Numbered from the stretch's first letter, positions 3,460 through 11,859 are shown. The stretch is DNA of 64,000 bases from Elusimicrobiota bacterium (GCA_016182905.1 JACPFR010000056.1:1-64000); one strand, 5' to 3'. Notes: generated by a model not told the origin, from the letters alone. A program made the numbers and translations.

Positions 3460-3843
3460 ATGAATGAGAGCGGCCGCACCCACCAGCGTTGGCCCAGCGA
3501 CCTCGCCGTCGAGGTCTTCAGCGGCCCCGTGGGCGGCGTGCGCATCGGCGAGGGCGTCCTGCTCGACCTGAGCCTTACCGGCTGCCTGCTGCGGGTGCGC
3601 GGCCTGCTCAAGGCCGGCTCGACCTACCGCGTCCGCGTCAACTGGAAAGGCGGAGCGCTCGACCTGCCGGGACGCGTGGCCCGCGACGCCGGGCGCTCCG
3701 GAACCGATCAGACCGCGCGACACTACGGCTTGGCCTTCAACCTCACCGGCGGCCAGGAAAAGGAGCTTCGCCTCCTGATCGACCAGGTCCGGCGCACCGA
3801 AAAGCCCGAGGACAAGGGCTTCATGCGCTCCTACTGGGGATAG
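3460..3843 (+). CDS. PilZ-domain-like protein
   Basis: This 127-residue cytoplasmic protein has PilZ features: a basic/aromatic start (QRWPSDLAVEVF) and the LDLSLTGCLLRV strand matching the D/NxSxxG part of the c-di-GMP site. The usual RxxxR motif is not clean, so ligand binding is uncertain. It likely acts as a signalling adaptor. It is transcribed alone and faces the convergent gene at 3853 with a 9-nt gap. Confidence 0.7.
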   Translation: MNESGRTHQRWPSDLAVEVFSGPVGGVRIGEGVLLDLSLTGCLLRVRGLLKAGSTYRVRVNWKGGALDLPGRVARDAGRSGTDQTARHYGLAFNLTGGQEKELRLLIDQVRRTEKPEDKGFMRSYWG

Positions 3844-3852
3844 CCGACGCCG

Positions 3853-4791
3853 TCAGTCTTGCTTCTCGCGCGGCGTCGTTCCTATTCGATCCGTCTTCCG
3901 AGTCCCGCCGGACGGCGGGCAGCGGGAACGATCCGCCTGCGCGTCTCCGGCACAGACGGCGGGTCCGAGCATCGCCTCGAGAACCGGGCGCAGTTCGGCG
4001 TGATGGCTCGCGCCGTAGACGACGAGGATGCGCTTCGCGCGGCTCAACTGCTCGGCGATGAGGGCGGCGAGGACTCGGTTGCGCACGAGGCTGTCTTTGT
4101 CGGCCACGCGCCGGCTCAGCAGCGGCGAGTCCGGTTGCGGGAGAATCTCGTCGAAATCGGGTTCGCCGGTGAAGGCCTTCCCGTTCCCGGCGGAGTACCA
4201 GGCTTCAAACTCCGGGTCAGACATCAACAAGCGCGGAGCCACGCCGAACTCCCGCGAGAAAGCGGACACGATCTCGCCGATGGTGCGCCGGCCCTCGGGA
4301 CGAGCGGCGTCCAAGAACCAAGTCCGTAAAATATAGAAACCCTGAAAATCGCGCATCGTGCATTTGCGGCGGGCGTGACAATCCTCGGCGAGCACGCCCT
4401 GCAACTCCTTCGCGGCGGCCGGCTCGCCCCCCAGCCACCTTACTCCTTGAGCTTCCGCCAGTCTCGCCGCGTGCGCCGACTCGCCTCCGGACGGGGGGCG
4501 TCGAGACCCCGGGCGCACGCCCTCGAGGATCAGCACGGCGGGACTCTGGGCGGCCAACTCCTCTTCGATGAGACGGAACGTCGAGGAGTCCTCGCCGTGG
4601 CGCGCCGCCACGAAGGAGAGGGCCGCGCGTCCATCGTCGTACCGCGCCCAGAACGGAGCCGGCGCCAGGTCCAGCGAGGAATTCCATGAGCGCACGAGCC
4701 GCGGATCGCTCGAATAGGGGGGCGTAGCGGGCGTATTCTCCGCCGCGAGCCCCGCCGAGAGGATCAGCATGATCGAGGCGGCGCGCACCAT
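3853..4791 (-). CDS. Secreted Tiki/TraB-like protein
   Basis: From ATG 4791 this 312-residue protein starts with a signal peptide (MVRAASIMLILSAGLAAE). Weak motifs fit the Tiki/TraB/ChaN-like fold: AARHGEDSSTF near the start of the mature part, a Glu in AVLILEGVRPG about 25 residues later, and VVYGASHHAEL near the C-terminus. Some family members are metalloproteases and others bind haem. The first motif has Ala where Gly is usual. An in-frame upstream start would add 11 non-signal residues and precede the promoter, so it was rejected. It lies just downstream of the radical SAM operon on the same strand but has its own promoter. Confidence 0.5.
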   Translation of the reverse strand: MVRAASIMLILSAGLAAENTPATPPYSSDPRLVRSWNSSLDLAPAPFWARYDDGRAALSFVAARHGEDSSTFRLIEEELAAQSPAVLILEGVRPGSRRPPSGGESAHAARLAEAQGVRWLGGEPAAAKELQGVLAEDCHARRKCTMRDFQGFYILRTWFLDAARPEGRRTIGEIVSAFSREFGVAPRLLMSDPEFEAWYSAGNGKAFTGEPDFDEILPQPDSPLLSRRVADKDSLVRNRVLAALIAEQLSRAKRILVVYGASHHAELRPVLEAMLGPAVCAGDAQADRSRCPPSGGTRKTDRIGTTPREKQD

Positions 4792-4800
4792 GGCGCAAAC

Positions 4801-4829
4801 AGGATAGCCCCGCCGCCGCGTCACGGCAA
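4801..4829 (-). promoter_or_regulatory. Putative leaderless promoter of the secreted Tiki-like gene
   Basis: On the minus strand TTGCCG (4829-4824) and TATCCT (4806-4801) are 17 bp apart. The -10 ends 9 nt before the ATG at 4791. Confidence 0.42.
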
Positions 4830-4848
4830 GGGTCCTGTCCCAATCCTA

Positions 4849-4862
4849 GCCGCCGCGGCGGC
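4849..4862. repeat. GC palindrome downstream of the His-Xaa-Ser gene
   Basis: GCCGCCGCGGCGGC is a perfect 14-bp palindrome 28 bp past the stop of the small protein gene. It could act as a terminator hairpin, but there is no T-tract after it. Confidence 0.3.
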
Positions 4863-4890
4863 GGCATGTCGCTGCGCCGCGCCGGTCAGT

Positions 4891-5175
4891 TCAAGAAGAA
4901 TGCGAGATGTAATAGTAGCTGATGTGATCAGAGTAGCTGCTATGCGCGTAGCTGTTGTGGTCCGTGTATTTGAGGTAAACGGTATAACCGCTGTCTATCA
5001 ACCGAAAGACTTTGTTTTTGGGGCCTTTCGGGCCCAGGGGGTTCTTTTGGGACTTGAACCCGCCCTTGTTGGCGGCCAAGGCCGCCATTCGTTTCAGCGC
5101 CTGCCGTCTCGCCGGCGTTGCCTTGCCGATGACCGACTGCTTGGTTTTCCCGCCGCTCTTTTTTCCCTTCTTCAT
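4891..5175 (-). CDS. Small basic protein with His-Xaa-Ser tail; candidate modified peptide
   Basis: This 94-residue protein has two parts. Residues 1-60 are Lys/Arg/Gly-rich (MKKGKKSGGKTKQSV). Residues 61-94 are dominated by Tyr, Ser and His and carry four His-Xaa-Ser motifs: HNS (73-75), HSS (78-80), HIS (84-86) and HSS (92-94), most preceded by Tyr. A GGGAG ribosome site lies 7 nt before the ATG. It is the last gene of the radical SAM operon, 39 nt after the glycosyltransferase. HxsA proteins, substrates of paired radical SAM enzymes, have C-terminal His-Xaa-Ser repeats, so a precursor role is a reasonable inference. The basic half alone could instead suggest a nucleic-acid-binding protein. 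Confidence 0.6.
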   Translation of the reverse strand: MKKGKKSGGKTKQSVIGKATPARRQALKRMAALAANKGGFKSQKNPLGPKGPKNKVFRLIDSGYTVYLKYTDHNSYAHSSYSDHISYYYISHSS

Positions 5176-5214
5176 TGGTGGCTCCCTGTACCGCTCGCCT
5201 CGCGGGCGAGCCGT

Positions 5215-6072
5215 TCACTCTTGGGTCTGAATGATCTTTAGAATTTCGCCGAAAATCCGCTCTACGGAGATTTCGTCAAGGCAATGGTTTTCCGGCCGCG
5301 GGCATTGCGAGGCGTAATTCTTGGGGTATCGCGGACCGATGCAGCGGCTTCGTTGATCGCACCTTTCCGCGGCAGCCGACAGCAAAACTTGGCCGTCATA
5401 CCCGTACGTCGCCGCATCGGTCGGGCCGAAAACGACGATGGCCGGCGTCCCCGCCAAGTGGGCCGCGTGCATGATGAAATTATCCGCCGTGACGACCAAG
5501 TCCGCTCTTTTCAACAGCGCCAGGAGCTGGCGGGGAGTAGTCAACCCCAATAGGGAATAAGCTCCCCTAACGTATGGGTCGCGCTTCCGGCCAACCTGCA
5601 GCGCCAGCAGGCCCTCGCTCGACGACAACTCGACGAGCCTCTCCCACCTTCCCATGCTCCATATTTTCCGCGGCGAATCCGAACTCGGCGCGATGATCAC
5701 GTTCTTCCTCTTCCATGGGACGGCGCCCGCGACCAGAGGATCGTCCTGAATGGCCCCCGGCAGATAAAGATTTTCCGCGATCGGCGTGGCGAGGCCGAAC
5801 GCGCGCGCCAGGATTTGAAAGGGACGCCGGCTTCCTCCTCCCAACTCCTCCAGCGCCCAGTAATCCGTCTTGATGATTCGCGCCCCTTTGGGGGGGAATC
5901 CGATGCGTTCTATGGCCGGATGTCCTTTGAAAATCGTCGTATACCGCGTTCTTCTGATCAAATTGAACTTCTGTCGAGGATTTCTCTCGAAAGCGGCCTT
6001 CAGCACGCCCGAGACCATCAGCGCGTCCCCGTACCCGCCGACGACATTGATCCATGGTTTATCCATCAGCAT
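5215..6072 (-). CDS. Glycosyltransferase family 9-like protein
   Basis: This 285-residue protein resembles heptosyltransferase-type GT9 enzymes. It has an N-terminal Rossmann-like GGYGDALM segment and the C-terminal nucleotide-sugar region ADLVVTADNFIMHAAHLAG followed by VVFGPTD. Five cysteines cluster near the end (CDQRSRC, SQC, NHC). It starts 3 nt after the radical SAM gene at 6076 and is followed by the His-Xaa-Ser gene. GT9 enzymes normally build lipopolysaccharide cores. No other envelope genes are here, so it may glycosylate the small protein or simply share the operon. Confidence 0.75.
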   Translation of the reverse strand: MLMDKPWINVVGGYGDALMVSGVLKAAFERNPRQKFNLIRRTRYTTIFKGHPAIERIGFPPKGARIIKTDYWALEELGGGSRRPFQILARAFGLATPIAENLYLPGAIQDDPLVAGAVPWKRKNVIIAPSSDSPRKIWSMGRWERLVELSSSEGLLALQVGRKRDPYVRGAYSLLGLTTPRQLLALLKRADLVVTADNFIMHAAHLAGTPAIVVFGPTDAATYGYDGQVLLSAAAERCDQRSRCIGPRYPKNYASQCPRPENHCLDEISVERIFGEILKIIQTQE

Positions 6073-6075
6073 GGC

Positions 6076-7194
6076 CTAGGCATTCGCGTGAACCGAAAAG
6101 TCGGCCTTCAACCCGGTGATCGGCTCGAAATATTTTTTCAAGAAAATCCGCTTGGCGTCGCACCATTCCGTCTTGTGCATGAAATCCTTTCGATCGTTAT
6201 AGGCATCCAGCGGACAGCCGCCATGGCATATCCGCCAATATCCGCAGCCGCGGCACTCCGTTTCCTGCAGCACATCGTCACGCTCCATCAGAACCCTCCG
6301 CTGACGATCCTGGAAGATGTCGGTCAGGGACCGGTCCTTGATATTCCCATATGAAAGGACTTCCCAGTCGGACGAGCGCCCGCAGTGGGATGCCCGGCCC
6401 GTCGGGCCGATGTATACGTGATCGAAGGCGCACTGGCCGGAGTTCGAGCAGCTTAGATGCCGGGGGCCTTCCTCGTAATTCTTCAAGTAAGTTCTGAAAG
6501 GATCCACCTCCTTGAACCGCGAGCGGTGTTCCCACCATGCGGGGAAGATGGCCCCCAGGAACTCGGTGAATTCGAGAGGAGTGATGCCGATCTTATTCTT
6601 GTCGTCGTTCTCGAATATTTCCACCGGATGGATCTTGAAGTTCCCGTTAAGCTTGAAATTGGCTAAAAAATTGAAGATGTCCAAGGGCCTCGTCAGGGCT
6701 TGGCGCGTCACCACGTAGATGAAGCCCCAACTGATCTTGTTCTTTCGGAGAAGCTCGGCGCCCTTCATGAACAACCGATTGTACGTCTCGGAATTCCGGC
6801 GTTTCCCGACGCCCCTGATATTGGGCAGCACTTCGAAGCTCGTCCCGATCGTCCCGATTCCCAGGCGCCGGAGGACGTCGATTATGTCCTGATTGATCAG
6901 GGTCAAGTTGGATTGTATGCTGTGATGCAGTCGAGCCTTCGTCGCGCGGCAGTGGTTTTCCTGAAACTCGACGGCTTCCTTGAAATAGTCCGCGCCGACG
7001 ATGCACGGCTCTCCGCCGTGCCAGGTCAGGTTGATCGTCTCCCTCGGGTTCTCCTCGAGATAGCGGTTGAAGCTCTTGAAGCAGACCTCCAGCAGGTCGA
7101 GGGGCATGATCCGGGGGGCTTTTCGCTGAACCACGTCGCAGTAGATGCAATTCGCATTGCATGCTTCCGTGGCTTTGAAGATTATGGTCGGCAC
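6076..7194 (-). CDS. Radical SAM/SPASM enzyme
   Basis: From GTG 7194 this 372-residue enzyme begins VPTIIFKATEACNANCIYC, which holds the CxxxCxxC motif for the [4Fe-4S]-SAM cluster. WHGGEP follows about 55 residues later. The C-terminal third has a SPASM-type cysteine set: LSCSNSGQC, ASHCG, ECRGCGYWRICHGGC and EWC. This resembles sulfatase-maturase and peptide-modifying enzymes. A GAGG ribosome site lies 5 nt before the GTG. A longer frame upstream exists, but its extra 58 residues are the shadow of the preceding gene. It overlaps that gene by 13 bp. Confidence 0.88.
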   Translation of the reverse strand: MPTIIFKATEACNANCIYCDVVQRKAPRIMPLDLLEVCFKSFNRYLEENPRETINLTWHGGEPCIVGADYFKEAVEFQENHCRATKARLHHSIQSNLTLINQDIIDVLRRLGIGTIGTSFEVLPNIRGVGKRRNSETYNRLFMKGAELLRKNKISWGFIYVVTRQALTRPLDIFNFLANFKLNGNFKIHPVEIFENDDKNKIGITPLEFTEFLGAIFPAWWEHRSRFKEVDPFRTYLKNYEEGPRHLSCSNSGQCAFDHVYIGPTGRASHCGRSSDWEVLSYGNIKDRSLTDIFQDRQRRVLMERDDVLQETECRGCGYWRICHGGCPLDAYNDRKDFMHKTEWCDAKRIFLKKYFEPITGLKADFSVHANA

Positions 7195-8042
7195 GAGGCC
7201 CTCGGGGACTTCTCCCGCGTCCGATGGGAATCGGCGGCGTCCAGTAAATTCGAAAACAGCGTCCGGCAGCCGGCGTCCTCGCCGCGGCGGCCGGCGAATT
7301 TTCCCAGGCAGATTCTCCAGGCCGGGCAGAAGGCGCACGCGCTTCGCTGGAGGAAGGGTTCTTGCCAAACGGCCAGGGCGGCCTGGTATTCGTCGTTTTG
7401 CGAGATCGATCCGAGCGAGCTCACTCCCTGCGCGATGAATTCGCCCCGTAAAAGTGCCGCGTGATTCAAGGCGATATTCTCGTTTTCGTCGATATGCAGG
7501 TATCGCCGGGGGTTTTCGAAATAGACCGAATCAAAATCCATGGGCGTCCGGGGATCATAATGCGACATGACGTGATGAAACGGCTCGATAGTTCCGCGGC
7601 CGGCCCGCCCGTAGACCGAGTAATGCATGAGGTCGTCCAACGCGTCCCAGTCGAGCTCCTCGGCCTCGAAAGTCAGCCCGCAATCGATCCCCAACGAGGC
7701 CAGAATCCTCGATTCGCGGATTCCCTCAGGGCTGGCCGGGGAGAATACACGGATATTCAGCTCCTTCAGCAGCGCAAGGCGCTCCGTGAGCTCGTTGAAC
7801 GGACCGAGGCCGGCGACATGGAGCGCGATTGGGATCTCGCGCCAGTCTTCGTCGAAAGGGACCCCCGTCAATGACTCTTTCCGGCTTGAGAGCAGCACGG
7901 CGTGCAGCTTGTTGCGCGCGTTCGCCAGGCGATCGATCTCCCGGATCCAGCCGGCGTCATCGGTCCGCACGACAAGCGCTTTCCGCTCGATCCTCGAGAT
8001 CAGCGCCTCATCGCACGGGCAGACCAGAATATGGTCACTCAT
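7182..8042 (-). CDS. Pseudo-radical-SAM/SPASM-like partner protein
   Basis: This 286-residue protein sits between the two radical SAM genes and overlaps both. Its middle looks like a TIM-barrel radical SAM core (LKELNIRVFSPASPEGIRES, LASLGIDCGLTFE) but it lacks any CxxxCxxC. The C-terminal region keeps a SPASM-like strand (YLHIDENENIALNH) and a cysteine set CAFCPAWRIC followed by a further Cys, enough for one auxiliary cluster. Pseudo-radical-SAM proteins accompany some peptide-modification systems. It may be a substrate-binding or electron-transfer subunit. The assignment rests on pattern only. Confidence 0.6.
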   Translation of the reverse strand: MSDHILVCPCDEALISRIERKALVVRTDDAGWIREIDRLANARNKLHAVLLSSRKESLTGVPFDEDWREIPIALHVAGLGPFNELTERLALLKELNIRVFSPASPEGIRESRILASLGIDCGLTFEAEELDWDALDDLMHYSVYGRAGRGTIEPFHHVMSHYDPRTPMDFDSVYFENPRRYLHIDENENIALNHAALLRGEFIAQGVSSLGSISQNDEYQAALAVWQEPFLQRSACAFCPAWRICLGKFAGRRGEDAGCRTLFSNLLDAADSHRTREKSPRASCRP

Positions 8043-9030
8043 CCGGATAGGCGCTCGCCAGGCGCACCTTGGGCTCGTTCATGAAATGCGTCAAGTTGTG
8101 CGCCAGACATCCGCCGGCGCAAAGCCCGTTGTCGCGATGCTTGCAGGCGTCGCACTCCTCGAATATCCCGCCCGCCTCGACCCTCATGGAGCGGTGCATC
8201 TCCGAGAAAAACTCATAAATGTCCGCGATGGAGTCGAACTCATAGAGTGATTTCTTTTGATAATTGGAAGTGGCGAAGCACGACCAGACGCTCATGTCCG
8301 GGCCAATGTCGAACGCCGGGCTGCAGCCGAAGTTCAGCCGCCCGCCGTTTAATTTGTAGAGGCGCCCCAGCTGCTCCTCGCTGAAGAGGCATAGCGGCAT
8401 CCCGCAGTCGAGAAGCGGCATGATGCCGAAACTCTCGAATTTTGGGATGAGCGCCACGAGACGCCCCGCCATTTCGCGCATATCCTCGATCTTCACGTGC
8501 TGATTATAGTCCCGGCCTGGTATCGGATGCGCCAGTCCCAGGCGAACGTGACGCTTCAAGCCGAATTGATTTATCAATTGGAACAGGAAGTCGAGCTCGA
8601 AATCGGGACGATAGATGTTGAATCCAGCGCTGGTCAGGCGGCCGAGGGAGCCGAGGAATCTCTTGATGCGTCCGGATTCCGCGGCAGTGGAAATCCCGGG
8701 GTCGTTGATGTTGCAGACGATGGACAGCCGCTCCGGGTCTCGGCCGCCCAGATGGCGCGCCGCCTCTCCCAGCGTTTTCTCCGAGAGTATGCCGCTCGTG
8801 AAGACATTCACGTGAAGGTCCCTCTTGAGCAAATACAGGATGAACTCAACGGAATGCGGATGTAGAAAGGGCTCGCCGCCGAGAAGCGCGACATTTTTTT
8901 CGCCGGATGCTTCCGCGAGATCGGCGATATAGATCAGGTTCTCCCAGCTCAAGACGTCCTCCGGGGCGGAGTCGTCCATATGCTTCTTGGCGAAGCAATA
9001 GGGACAGGAGCGCACGCATTTTTGCGTCAA
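8035..9030 (-). CDS. Radical SAM enzyme with C-terminal Cys cluster
   Basis: This is the first gene of the operon. TQKCVRSCPYCFAKKHM gives the CxxxCxxC cluster motif, followed by NVALLGGEPFLHP. The C-terminal part has FGCSP, WSCFA and CDACKHRDNGLCAGGC, consistent with one or two auxiliary iron-sulfur clusters. The start is uncertain. TTG 9030 gives 331 residues, but the frame stays open to 9093 with residues IPNILL just before the first motif, and homologues usually have about 5-10 residues there. A non-ATG start slightly upstream is possible. It overlaps the next gene by 8 bp. Confidence 0.85.
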   Translation of the reverse strand: MTQKCVRSCPYCFAKKHMDDSAPEDVLSWENLIYIADLAEASGEKNVALLGGEPFLHPHSVEFILYLLKRDLHVNVFTSGILSEKTLGEAARHLGGRDPERLSIVCNINDPGISTAAESGRIKRFLGSLGRLTSAGFNIYRPDFELDFLFQLINQFGLKRHVRLGLAHPIPGRDYNQHVKIEDMREMAGRLVALIPKFESFGIMPLLDCGMPLCLFSEEQLGRLYKLNGGRLNFGCSPAFDIGPDMSVWSCFATSNYQKKSLYEFDSIADIYEFFSEMHRSMRVEAGGIFEECDACKHRDNGLCAGGCLAHNLTHFMNEPKVRLASAYPDE

Positions 9031-9110
9031 TAAAATATTAGGAATGGCGCGGCATCCTTGCGATCGGCTTACCCTCGGCCTGCTTCCCGGACGCTACGGT
9101 CGGGCATGGC

Positions 9111-9581
9111 CTAACTGTTGAAAAAAGAGTCGGCGGCAACTTTGGCGAGCTCTTGAAGGTCCGCCTCCGCGCCGGCCAGCCCCGCTATATCGGCGGAATC
9201 CCCCGACGACTTCGCGAACGCTTCTCGCCGGTGCCGCAGCCCCGCGGCCTTCGCCGCGGCGAGGCGGGCGAGCGCTTTCCCCTTCGCTTCGGCGTCTAGC
9301 GCCGTCTTTAAAGCGTCCTTCGTGGATTTCTCGGCCGTGTCGGCGCGCCGCTCGGCCTTGGCGGCCTGCTCCCGGTGCACCTCTCGGCCGAAAAGGAAGC
9401 CGGCGGCGGCGAACGCGATCGCCTCGACGCTTCCGAACAGATAAATCGCTCTTGTCCACGTTCTTTCATCGGCCGTGCCGGTTATCTGCAGCATGTGCCG
9501 GAGCACGAGCCCAAAAGCCGCCAGCACGGCGATAGCCCCGACGAGAAGGACGGGGGTCCATTTTCCATTGGCGTCGTCCAT
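9111..9581 (-). CDS. Two-helix membrane protein with coiled-coil tail
   Basis: This 156-residue protein is not a family I recognise. It has transmembrane segments at about residues 9-29 and 45-65, then an Ala/Lys/Glu/Arg-rich stretch (about 70-130) likely to form a cytoplasmic coiled coil, ending DSFFNS. It lies 80 nt upstream of the radical SAM operon on the same strand. It could be its first cistron, although no clear linkage is visible. Confidence 0.6.
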   Translation of the reverse strand: MDDANGKWTPVLLVGAIAVLAAFGLVLRHMLQITGTADERTWTRAIYLFGSVEAIAFAAAGFLFGREVHREQAAKAERRADTAEKSTKDALKTALDAEAKGKALARLAAAKAAGLRHRREAFAKSSGDSADIAGLAGAEADLQELAKVAADSFFNS

Positions 9582-9726
9582 GTTTAAAAGATCGCTTCCA
9601 TCGCCCCTGCTCGTGGTAATTTTTGTGATTTCGTTCTATCATTAAATCCGATGGCGGACGGATGGGCAATCCTCTTTCACGCCTCGAATGAGAAGACCGG
9701 CGCTGGAGAGACCGAGGGTGGACGCG
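9582..9726. other. Intergenic stretch, no gene seen
   Basis: This 145-bp gap between two minus-strand genes has an AT-rich half (about 9600-9650) that could hold the promoter for the membrane protein at 9581. I could not assign convincing -35 and -10 elements. Short open frames here match nothing recognisable. Confidence 0.4.
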
Positions 9727-11076
9727 TTAAGCGACGTCGAGGGAGGAGATGCGGAAGGTGGGGGCGCCGAGGGAGCCTTGGAAGGTGAGGTCGGAGGCGA
9801 CGCCGTCGACGCGGGACAGGAGGTCGAGGAGGCTGCCGGAGATCATGGCGCCTTTGACGGGGCGGGCGACTCGCCCTTTCTCGATGGACAGGCCGGAGAC
9901 GCCGACGGAGAAGGCGCCCGAGACGGGGTCCACCATGTGCATGCCGAGCACCTCGGCGACGAGGAGGCCCGACTTCGTGTCCGCGATGAGGGCCTCGCGC
10001 GTCGCCGCGCCGGGAGCGAGGTAGAGGTTCGACGCGCCGGGGCCGGGCAGGCCGGCGTAGGAGTCGCGGAAGGCGCAGCCGTTCGAGGGCAGGCCTTCCC
10101 GGGCCGCGGTGAACGCGTCGTGGAAGAAGCCGCGAAGGACGCCCGCCTCGATCATCGCCTTGTCGCGGGTGGGCACGCCCTCGTCGTCGAATCGGCTCGA
10201 CCCCAGGCCGCCGGGGCGGCGGGGATCGTCGCGCAGGGTGACGAGCGGGGAGGCGACCGTCTTGCCGAGCTTGCCGGCCAGCAGCGAGCGTCCGCCCTGG
10301 ACCTCGTCGGCCGAGAGCAGCTCGGCCAACAGCTCGAGGAATTCCCCCGCGACCCAAGGCTCGAAGAGGATCGCGCGCTTGCCGGCCTTGACGCGGCGGG
10401 CGCCGAGCAAAGACGACGCGCGCAGGCCCGCCTCGCGGCCGGCGGCGGCGAAGTCGAGGGACGACGCGCGCCGCTCGGCGCGATAACCCTCGCCGAGCTG
10501 GACCTCGGCCCCGTCCTCGGCGGCGACGACGAGGGAGACGCTCGCCGAGCCGCCGCGCTCGCCGGCGAGCAGGCCGCTCGTGCCGGCGACGACGACGGAC
10601 CCGCGGCTCTCCGCGTACTCGACGCGCATGACCTTGGCCACGCGCGGGGACGCGAGCGCGGCCGCTTCGGCCTCGCGCAGGCGCTCCTCGACCTTCTCCC
10701 ACGGGGCGGTGAACAGCGCCTCGTCCCACAGGGTCCCGGGCAGGGCGTCGTCACCGGGGGCGGGCTGGGGGCCGGGGAGGACGCGGCGGGGGTCGGGTTC
10801 GGCGTGAGGCAGCTGCTCGAGGGCACGAGCGTATAATTCCTTTATAGCCTCGAGGTCCGCGCCCCCGGCCGCGGCGAAGCCGACGCGGCCGTCGCGCACC
10901 ACGCGCACCCCGGCGCCCGCGTTCTCCGAGGCCTCGACGCCGTCGCGCTCGCCCTCCCGCCGGGACACGGAGCGCGCCTCGCCGCTCGACAGGAAGACCT
11001 CGGCCTGGGTCTCGGCGGAGCGGGACCGCATCCAGGCGACGGAATCACGCGCCAGCTGCTCGAGGTCGGCACTCAT
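9727..11076 (-). CDS. pmbA: TldD/PmbA family protein (PmbA/TldE-type)
   Basis: This 449-residue protein matches the PmbA (TldE) half of the TldD/TldE metalloprotease. The N-terminal domain includes GAGVRVVRDGRVGFAA, and the C-terminal domain has ISGSLLDLLSRVDGVASD and GAPTFRISSLDVA. TldD/E heterodimers trim peptides such as microcin B17 precursor and CcdA; TldE itself lacks the zinc motif. No tldD is in the window. It is the last gene of the long minus-strand run. A TldD/E-type protease not far from a candidate peptide-modification operon is suggestive, but they are separate units. Confidence 0.85.
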   Translation of the reverse strand: MSADLEQLARDSVAWMRSRSAETQAEVFLSSGEARSVSRREGERDGVEASENAGAGVRVVRDGRVGFAAAGGADLEAIKELYARALEQLPHAEPDPRRVLPGPQPAPGDDALPGTLWDEALFTAPWEKVEERLREAEAAALASPRVAKVMRVEYAESRGSVVVAGTSGLLAGERGGSASVSLVVAAEDGAEVQLGEGYRAERRASSLDFAAAGREAGLRASSLLGARRVKAGKRAILFEPWVAGEFLELLAELLSADEVQGGRSLLAGKLGKTVASPLVTLRDDPRRPGGLGSSRFDDEGVPTRDKAMIEAGVLRGFFHDAFTAAREGLPSNGCAFRDSYAGLPGPGASNLYLAPGAATREALIADTKSGLLVAEVLGMHMVDPVSGAFSVGVSGLSIEKGRVARPVKGAMISGSLLDLLSRVDGVASDLTFQGSLGAPTFRISSLDVA

Positions 11077-11083
11077 GCGGGTG

Positions 11084-11302
11084 TCAGCGGCCCAGCGAGG
11101 ACCAGCCCGTGTACAGGAACAGGAAGGACACCAGCAGGAAGAACATGCCCCACTTCTTGCGCTCGAGGGCGATGTAGGCGTCGTTGAGCAGGTAGTCGCG
11201 CAGGACCGCGTTCATGCGCTCGATGAGGTCCGGGCGGTACAGGTAGCCCAGGCCGAGGACGCCGCTGAGCAGGCCGATGACGATCTTGAGCGTGGGGGTC
11301 AT
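11084..11302 (-). CDS. Small membrane protein, 72 residues
   Basis: It starts MTPTLKIVIGLLSGVLGLGY and has two hydrophobic segments, about 5-21 and 50-67, separated by a charged loop. The ATG overlaps the end of pth by 4 bp and pmbA starts 7 nt after its stop, so it is translationally linked to both. I do not recognise the family and propose no function. Confidence 0.65.
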   Translation of the reverse strand: MTPTLKIVIGLLSGVLGLGYLYRPDLIERMNAVLRDYLLNDAYIALERKKWGMFFLLVSFLFLYTGWSSLGR

Positions 11303-11859
11303 GCAGCGGGATTATAGCGGTTCATGGCCATGTCGATGCCGTTCTCGCGAACGACCCCGACGGCCTCGGCCGCGGTGGCGAGAACGGCGTCCAGTTCGTT
11401 TTCTTCGCTTTTATTGAATTTTCCCAGAACAAAATTCGTCGCGCTTACCTTCTCCGGCTGAGGCCCGATGCCGATGCGAAGCCTCGATATGTTCTCCGTT
11501 CCAAAGTGCGAGATGATGGACTTCATGCCGTTCTGACCGCCCGCGGATCCGTTCTTCCGGATACGGATCTTGCCGAGAGGGATGGCGAGCTCGTCATAGA
11601 CGATCAATATATCCTCCAGCGCGATGTTGTGGTAGGCGGCGAACTTCTGCACGAACTCTCCGGAGAGGTTCATGAAGGTCATCGGCTTGGCGACCCACAG
11701 GTCGCCGCTCTTGGCGGCGATGCCCAGTCCTTTAAAATCCTTCCAAAAAGAGTCCGCCTCGCCGACCAAGCGGTCGGCGAGGCGGAAGCCCACGTTGTGG
11801 CGCGTCTTCTCGTACTCCGGGCCCGGGTTGCCGAGGCCGACGACGAGCTTAAGCGCCAC
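11299..11859 (-). CDS. pth: Peptidyl-tRNA hydrolase
   Basis: This enzyme releases peptides from prematurely dissociated peptidyl-tRNA. It has 186 residues, the usual size. Motifs are VVGLGNPGPEYEKTRHNVGF (with the catalytic His), KPMTFMNLSG and DELAIPLGKIRIR, then GGQNGMKSI. It lies 12 nt after rplY. The order prs-rplY(ctc)-pth is conserved in many bacteria, which supports the call. Confidence 0.96.
   Translation of the reverse strand: MALKLVVGLGNPGPEYEKTRHNVGFRLADRLVGEADSFWKDFKGLGIAAKSGDLWVAKPMTFMNLSGEFVQKFAAYHNIALEDILIVYDELAIPLGKIRIRKNGSAGGQNGMKSIISHFGTENISRLRIGIGPQPEKVSATNFVLGKFNKSEENELDAVLATAAEAVGVVRENGIDMAMNRYNPAA

Follow-up and report, generated by a model that had tools for sequence, protein, structure and literature searches.

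A diverged member of a widespread, apparently unnamed radical SAM-glycosyltransferase gene system, probably acquired horizontally, in an Elusimicrobiota genome

The window analyzed here, a 64 000-nucleotide stretch of DNA from an Elusimicrobiota bacterium (GCA_016182905.1 JACPFR010000056.1:1-64000), contains a compact operon of five minus-strand genes that encode two radical SAM enzymes (rsA, 8035..9045, with SPASM-like C-terminal cysteines, and rsC, 6076..7194), a pseudo-radical-SAM protein (pB, 7182..8042), a GT9-family glycosyltransferase (gtD, 5215..6072) and a small putative substrate protein (smE, 4891..5175). An earlier note made from the sequence alone had described this arrangement, and rereading of the sequence reproduced it exactly: rsA and pB overlap by 8 bp, pB and rsC overlap by 13 bp when rsC is read from the GTG at 7194, and gaps of 3 nt and 39 nt separate rsC from gtD and gtD from smE. 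The GTG, not the mechanically assigned TTG at 7368, is the start of rsC, the homologues of which begin with MPTIIFK. The mechanical start of rsA is a TTG at 9030, but the corrected start is almost certainly the ATT at 9045 (IPNILLTQKC): the homologues begin with M[AP]N[IVL]LLT..C, ATG occupies this position in 39 of the 41 readable ones, and the ATT of the window (9043-9045) has AAGGA nine bases upstream. Such a rare initiation codon could also be an assembly error or an early sign of decay. The GC content of the operon (0.56-0.61) is lower than that of its flanks (about 0.64-0.70), as the note had it, and the CxxxCxxC motif is present in both enzymes (CVRSCPYC in rsA, CNANCIYC in rsC) and absent from pB. 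The extra C-terminal cysteines reported for three proteins are conserved in rsA, rsC and pB, and in the glycosyltransferase as well. In an Rfam scan of the window, a tRNA was the sole match.

Together with two unrelated minus-strand genes (3853-4824 and 9111-9581), the operon forms a 5.9-kb island (3845-9726) inserted between a PilZ gene (3460-3843) and pmbA (9727-11076). The operon is absent from this junction in five congeners: the PilZ-pmbA gap is 15 bp in genome G011, 47 bp in G001 and similarly short in G018, whereas the junction spans about 0.7 kb and lacks PilZ in G006 and carries a different 4.4-kb insert in G007. The junction is an insertion hot spot, with the island at 3843-9727 of the window and the unrelated insert at 7275-11630 of the G007 locus (L074). 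Neither of the two extra island genes, which encode proteins of 323 and 156 amino acids, has a homologue in the other operon loci, and rsC was not found in 57 relatives at E<=1e-40. The closest relatives of the window rsA, with up to 60% identity, are found in three Bacteroidota loci (L019, L021 and L022), which also share with the window the order of GT9 gene followed by precursor gene; identity to the other Elusimicrobia is near 49%, within a range of 49-70% among the Elusimicrobia homologues. Horizontal acquisition of the operon is likely; the tree has poor resolution near the window and points to no one donor. The neighboring PmbA/TldD protease was weighed as a participant and set aside, since every one of the 17 congeners and family members examined encodes it, and rsC searches of these 17 showed them to be without the operon.

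The operon is a diverged member of a widespread gene system for which no name was found. The three genes rsA, pB and rsC occur in this fixed order on one strand in 37 loci, including the window, from 11 phyla according to submitter titles (Bacteroidota, Thermodesulfobacteriota, Myxococcota, Chlorobiota, Nitrospirota, Ignavibacteriota, Gemmatimonadota, Spirochaetota, Nitrospinota, Armatimonadota and Elusimicrobiota). An rsA profile search of contigs from one genome per species gave 48 loci, and a pB search across the phylum gave three further Elusimicrobia operons (L009-L011); all locus counts are lower bounds because loci were scanned by exact peptide patterns. Three loci (L054-L056) contain only distant relatives of rsA, and no relative of rsC was found in a scan of viral contigs. 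In NCBIfam release 20, neither the substrate nor any of rsA, pB and rsC is covered by an equivalog, so that annotation pipelines pass the system over, and no description of it was found in the open-access literature; subscription papers or preprints could contain one. Gene content varies around the conserved trio: three loci (L017, L018 and L024) carry a tandem rsC pair and hence three radical SAM enzymes per operon, a DUF3738 protein (PF12543, tested) is encoded downstream of the L009 operon (4768-5523), and an operon neighbor in L011 (9403-10230) resembles that protein by eye.

Among the enzymes, rsC matches PF04055 and PF13186, and its eight C-terminal cysteines, invariant in 20 homologues, correspond to two auxiliary clusters of the anSME type. 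The closest solved structure to its model is that of anSMEcpe (TM 0.80), followed by ChlB (TM 0.78). The best NCBIfam scores are those of DynA (149 bits, cut-off 450), the anSME equivalog (146 bits, cut-off 349), DarE (121 bits, cut-off 650), GrrM/OscB (102 bits) and AmcB (100 bits), with YhhB (77 bits) and XyeB (60 bits) lower still; the cut-offs of the last four lie at 310-450 bits, and none is reached. The enzyme is about equally close to anSME and to the cyclophane formers and falls below every curated cut-off. In anSME, the Asp that follows the third auxiliary cysteine is catalytic; rsC has a Gly at the aligned position. The first enzyme, rsA, matches PF04055 (51.4 bits) and, weakly, SPASM, and no characterized close relative was found for it.

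Between the two enzymes lies pB, which is predicted to be a catalytically dead protein of the radical SAM/SPASM fold. The CxxxCxxC motif is missing in all 29 homologues, and the cysteines of the invariant tail C-x2-C-x5-C...C are spaced like those of the second cysteine group in rsC. Neither Pfam nor NCBIfam, including the NCBIfam pseudo-rSAM models, gives a match, but the pB profile matches rsC (E=3.5e-5), and the AlphaFold model (pLDDT 93) finds its best folds among the maturases CteB, TigE and SuiB (E from 4e-5 to 7e-4, with TM only about 0.49).

The glycosyltransferase gtD scores 43.3 bits against PF01075 (Glyco_transf_9; gathering score 22). In the alignment, most members of this GT9 group share N-terminal GD and DNFxMHAAH motifs, and the group has its own set of four conserved C-terminal cysteines. 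GT9 is encoded by a separate gene in 18 loci and forms a C-terminal fusion with rsC in five (L027, L028, L039, L041 and L048); in L044, L045 and L047, where rsC was not found, a degenerate GT9-like domain lies within a pB-like protein. No GT9 is located nearby in about a dozen loci, for some of them because the contig ends. The shared operon and the rsC-GT9 fusions support a putative sugar transfer by GT9 to the small protein. The earlier proposal of a radical SAM protein-modification pathway with a pseudo-enzyme and a coupled glycosyltransferase is supported by the pB fold and the fusions; a substrate of the HxsA type is not supported.

A small tyrosine-rich protein is encoded beside the operons in 37 loci, 30 of them recognized via the leader and seven via composition. 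The family leader, [ST]RR[DE]A[LI]KR[MI]A, is followed by a hydrophobic segment and normally makes up a Tat-type signal; in eight precursors (L016, L017, L018, L024, L026, L032, L040 and L058), a lipobox-like cysteine comes after the signal. In the 31 precursors other than that of the window, the motif Y-x-[SND], the pattern of known three-residue cyclophane substrates, occurs 462 times compared with 251 +/- 10 in shuffled sequences, an excess that does not translate into a probability because the 31 sequences are related. The spacing between tyrosines is 3 in many precursors and 4 in others, whereas Ser, Asn or Asp at i+2 is found in both types and is therefore the more constant feature. TatC is encoded in 33 of the 36 host genomes checked, and a tatA-like gene adjoins the operon in L019, L022, L050 and L052; L052 probably includes tatC as well, since the hit G339:C12:2774-3466 would lie within this locus provided that contigs are numbered as in the record. 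Two Elusimicrobia hosts, G271 and G258, gave no TatC match, although their precursors have Tat-like signals; given that these genomes are MAGs, the absence is not certain. In three Chlorobi loci (L035, 11457-12269; L036, 4269-5144; L050, 6615-7586), the tyrosine stretch is part of a larger protein, and the C-terminal domain of the L036 protein, the one tested, is similar to its counterpart in Lcl, a collagen-like adhesin (60.8 bits, which is below the cut-off), and this suggests a stalk role.

The small protein of the window, smE, departs from this pattern. It aligns with the precursors of L009-L011, is encoded by the last gene of the operon and carries the leader motif TPARRQALKRMA at residues of about 20-31. 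Its tail reads YTV YLK YTD HNS YA HSS YSD HIS YY YIS HSS. When Tyr and His are pooled, this tail shows 8 lag-3 pairs compared with the 3.5 expected (p = 0.001), Tyr alone shows no period-3 excess (p = 0.46), and the excess of [YH]x[SND] is weak (7 vs 4.2 expected, p = 0.047). The twin arginine of a Tat substrate is present and the hydrophobic h-region is absent: the maximal mean hydropathy is -0.29, compared with 1.45-2.21 in the 31 relatives. TatC is encoded in the genome of the window. The retention of the RRxALKRMA block without an export segment suggests that the maturases also read this block. In its own genome, smE ranks only third with the leader profile (E = 0.023), as an internal segment of a TadC-like protein and a further RR signal score higher, and for this reason leader, operon position and core are taken together.

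These peculiarities might mean that the window copy is decaying after a recent acquisition, with smE a degenerate precursor, or that smE is an unrelated basic protein and no substrate at all, and the missing signal segment, the modest leader match and the ATT start of rsA all fit such an account. It appears improbable, given that all four genes for the enzymes are intact and their cluster cysteines conserved, that the leader motif and the Tyr/His register are kept, and that smE occupies the last position in the operon exactly as do the precursors of the nearest relatives, L019, L021 and L022. A weak search of the genome brought up no further tyrosine-repeat precursor; a search of the same genome with full-length precursors, which is uninformative for sequences of such low complexity, found nothing.

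The tail was also the basis of the assignment of smE as a His-Xaa-Ser substrate of the HxsA type. It does contain four HxS motifs (p = 0.002 compared with shuffled tails), and like HxsABCD, the window has two radical SAM enzymes beside a small protein with HxS. However, the HxS motifs of smE are the histidine part of its Tyr/His period-3 register, and a single HxS, in L009, was detected in the 31 other precursors. Poor conservation of the tail among orthologues, named beforehand in the earlier note as evidence against its proposal, is thus what the relatives display; wide occurrence of the small protein without radical SAM neighbors, the other such evidence, was not seen in searches anchored on the enzymes. 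The enzymes fall far below the HxsB and HxsC cut-offs (with the HxsB model, cut-off 370, rsC reaches 54.5 bits and rsA 18.1 bits), and family-model searches revealed no match to HxsA, HxsC or HxsD among the window proteins, in line with the suspicion that HxsD is missing and the architecture differs. Family scores and orthologue tails together led to the rejection of Hxs membership, and a true Hxs system or a close variant of it is exceedingly improbable.

The reading favored here, with a probability of about 0.5, is that rsC forms three-residue cyclophanes iteratively, that rsA and pB act as its partner or as a second modifier, and that GT9 glycosylates the product. The leader TPARRQALKRMA would recruit the maturases; rsC would then link the Tyr or His ring at position i to the beta-carbon of Ser, Asp or Asn at i+2 and repeat this along the Tyr/His-x-x array to yield a chain of three-residue cyclophanes. 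The dead pB, as a substrate-binding or cluster-carrying partner, and rsA would assist or add a second radical modification, and GT9 would attach sugar to the product, with hydroxyls of Ser or Tyr as the probable sites. Among the relatives, the stiffened product in most cases would be exported by Tat and kept at the envelope, partly as a lipoprotein, as a rod or stalk; the smE product, lacking the export segment, would stay in the cytoplasm or leave by another way. Of all this, the family, its gene order, fusions, folds, cluster cysteines and core motif are observed, whereas leader recognition, chemistry, sugar site, localization and biological role are inferred. This reading is preferred because known enzymes show the same Tyr/His interchange, YhhB reportedly forming both Tyr-to-Arg and His-to-Arg three-residue cyclophanes and ScaB taking Tyr for His (PMC11002830), and because Tat, which transports folded proteins (PMC13323110), would be a fitting route for a chain already stiffened in the cytoplasm. 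Also counted in its favor are the fixed gene order, the common leader, the Tyr/His register, the likeness of rsC to the DynA, DarE, GrrM, AmcB and YhhB models, the Gly in place of the anSME Asp, the rsC-GT9 fusions and the occurrence of TatC and tatA. Counted against it are the rsC scores, which lie below the cut-offs and are about as close to anSME as to the cyclophane formers, the weak [YH]x[SND] excess in smE, the dependence of its period-3 result on pooling His with Tyr, the third rank of its leader, its lack of a signal segment, the dozen or so loci without GT9 and the gaps in TatC occurrence.

The main rival keeps the substrates and changes the chemistry: the radical SAM pair would form ethers or link one tyrosine to another (i to i+3 or i+4), oxidize rings or beta-carbons, or give epimers or backbone changes. 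The regular distance of 3 or 4 between tyrosines stands out no less than the i+2 residue, rsA has no characterized close relative, and DarE, whose model scores well with rsC, makes an ether and a C-C link (PMC9055067). The spacing varies, whereas precursors of either spacing retain Ser, Asn or Asp at i+2, and this speaks against the alternative, which nonetheless retains a limited plausibility.

Found in at least eleven phyla, the system suggests a coupling of glycosylation to the radical modification of tyrosine-repeat proteins. Known radical SAM peptides are mostly small secreted compounds, whereas the proteins here are long, mostly targeted for export and partly membrane-anchored. It is conceivable, as a tentative extension, that they represent ribosomal polymers of a widespread and so far unnamed class: rods of tyrosine arrays, anchored in the envelope, that are rigidified in the cytoplasm by iterative radical cross-linking, glycosylated by a GT9 enzyme attached to the maturase or fused with it, and exported folded through Tat as structural stalks, mostly in anaerobes; a function of the rods as tyrosine wires is more speculative still. 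Both the coupling and the aromatic specificity are open to direct test, through the natural rsC-GT9 fusions and the Tyr-to-His mix of the window.

Among the known systems, HxsABCD differs through the lack, in the window, of HxsA, C and D homologues, the HxsB score and the unconserved HxS. In Bacteroidales RiPP clusters (IPR026418), a dead radical SAM/SPASM protein lies beside active enzymes and a precursor (PMC10352776), which is the setting of pB; unlike those proteins, pB matches no NCBIfam pseudo-rSAM model, and a LanC-like gene is not among the five genes of the operon. With anSME, rsC shares its closest solved structure and the eight auxiliary cysteines, but it has Gly for the catalytic Asp, and the operon contains no sulfatase. 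DynA and DarE are among the best-scoring models for rsC, yet their products are small secreted antibiotics with Trp-centered links, and no GT9 or pseudo-enzyme is noted here for them. The triceptide enzymes (XncB, OscB/GrrM, MscB, YhhB, HaaB and AmcB) share the SPASM fold and cluster set, and their systems the substrates rich in aromatic-x-[Ser/Asn/Asp] triplets, with alternating Tyr and His in those of YhhB and HaaB/ScaB (PMC11002830). In the present system, by contrast, rsC is accompanied by another radical SAM enzyme, by a pseudo-enzyme and, as a rule, by a GT9, and the substrates are long tyrosine-repeat proteins that have Tat-type leaders and lipoboxes. With scores below all the cut-offs, its enzymes are outside every curated triceptide family, and they may act in a like mode.
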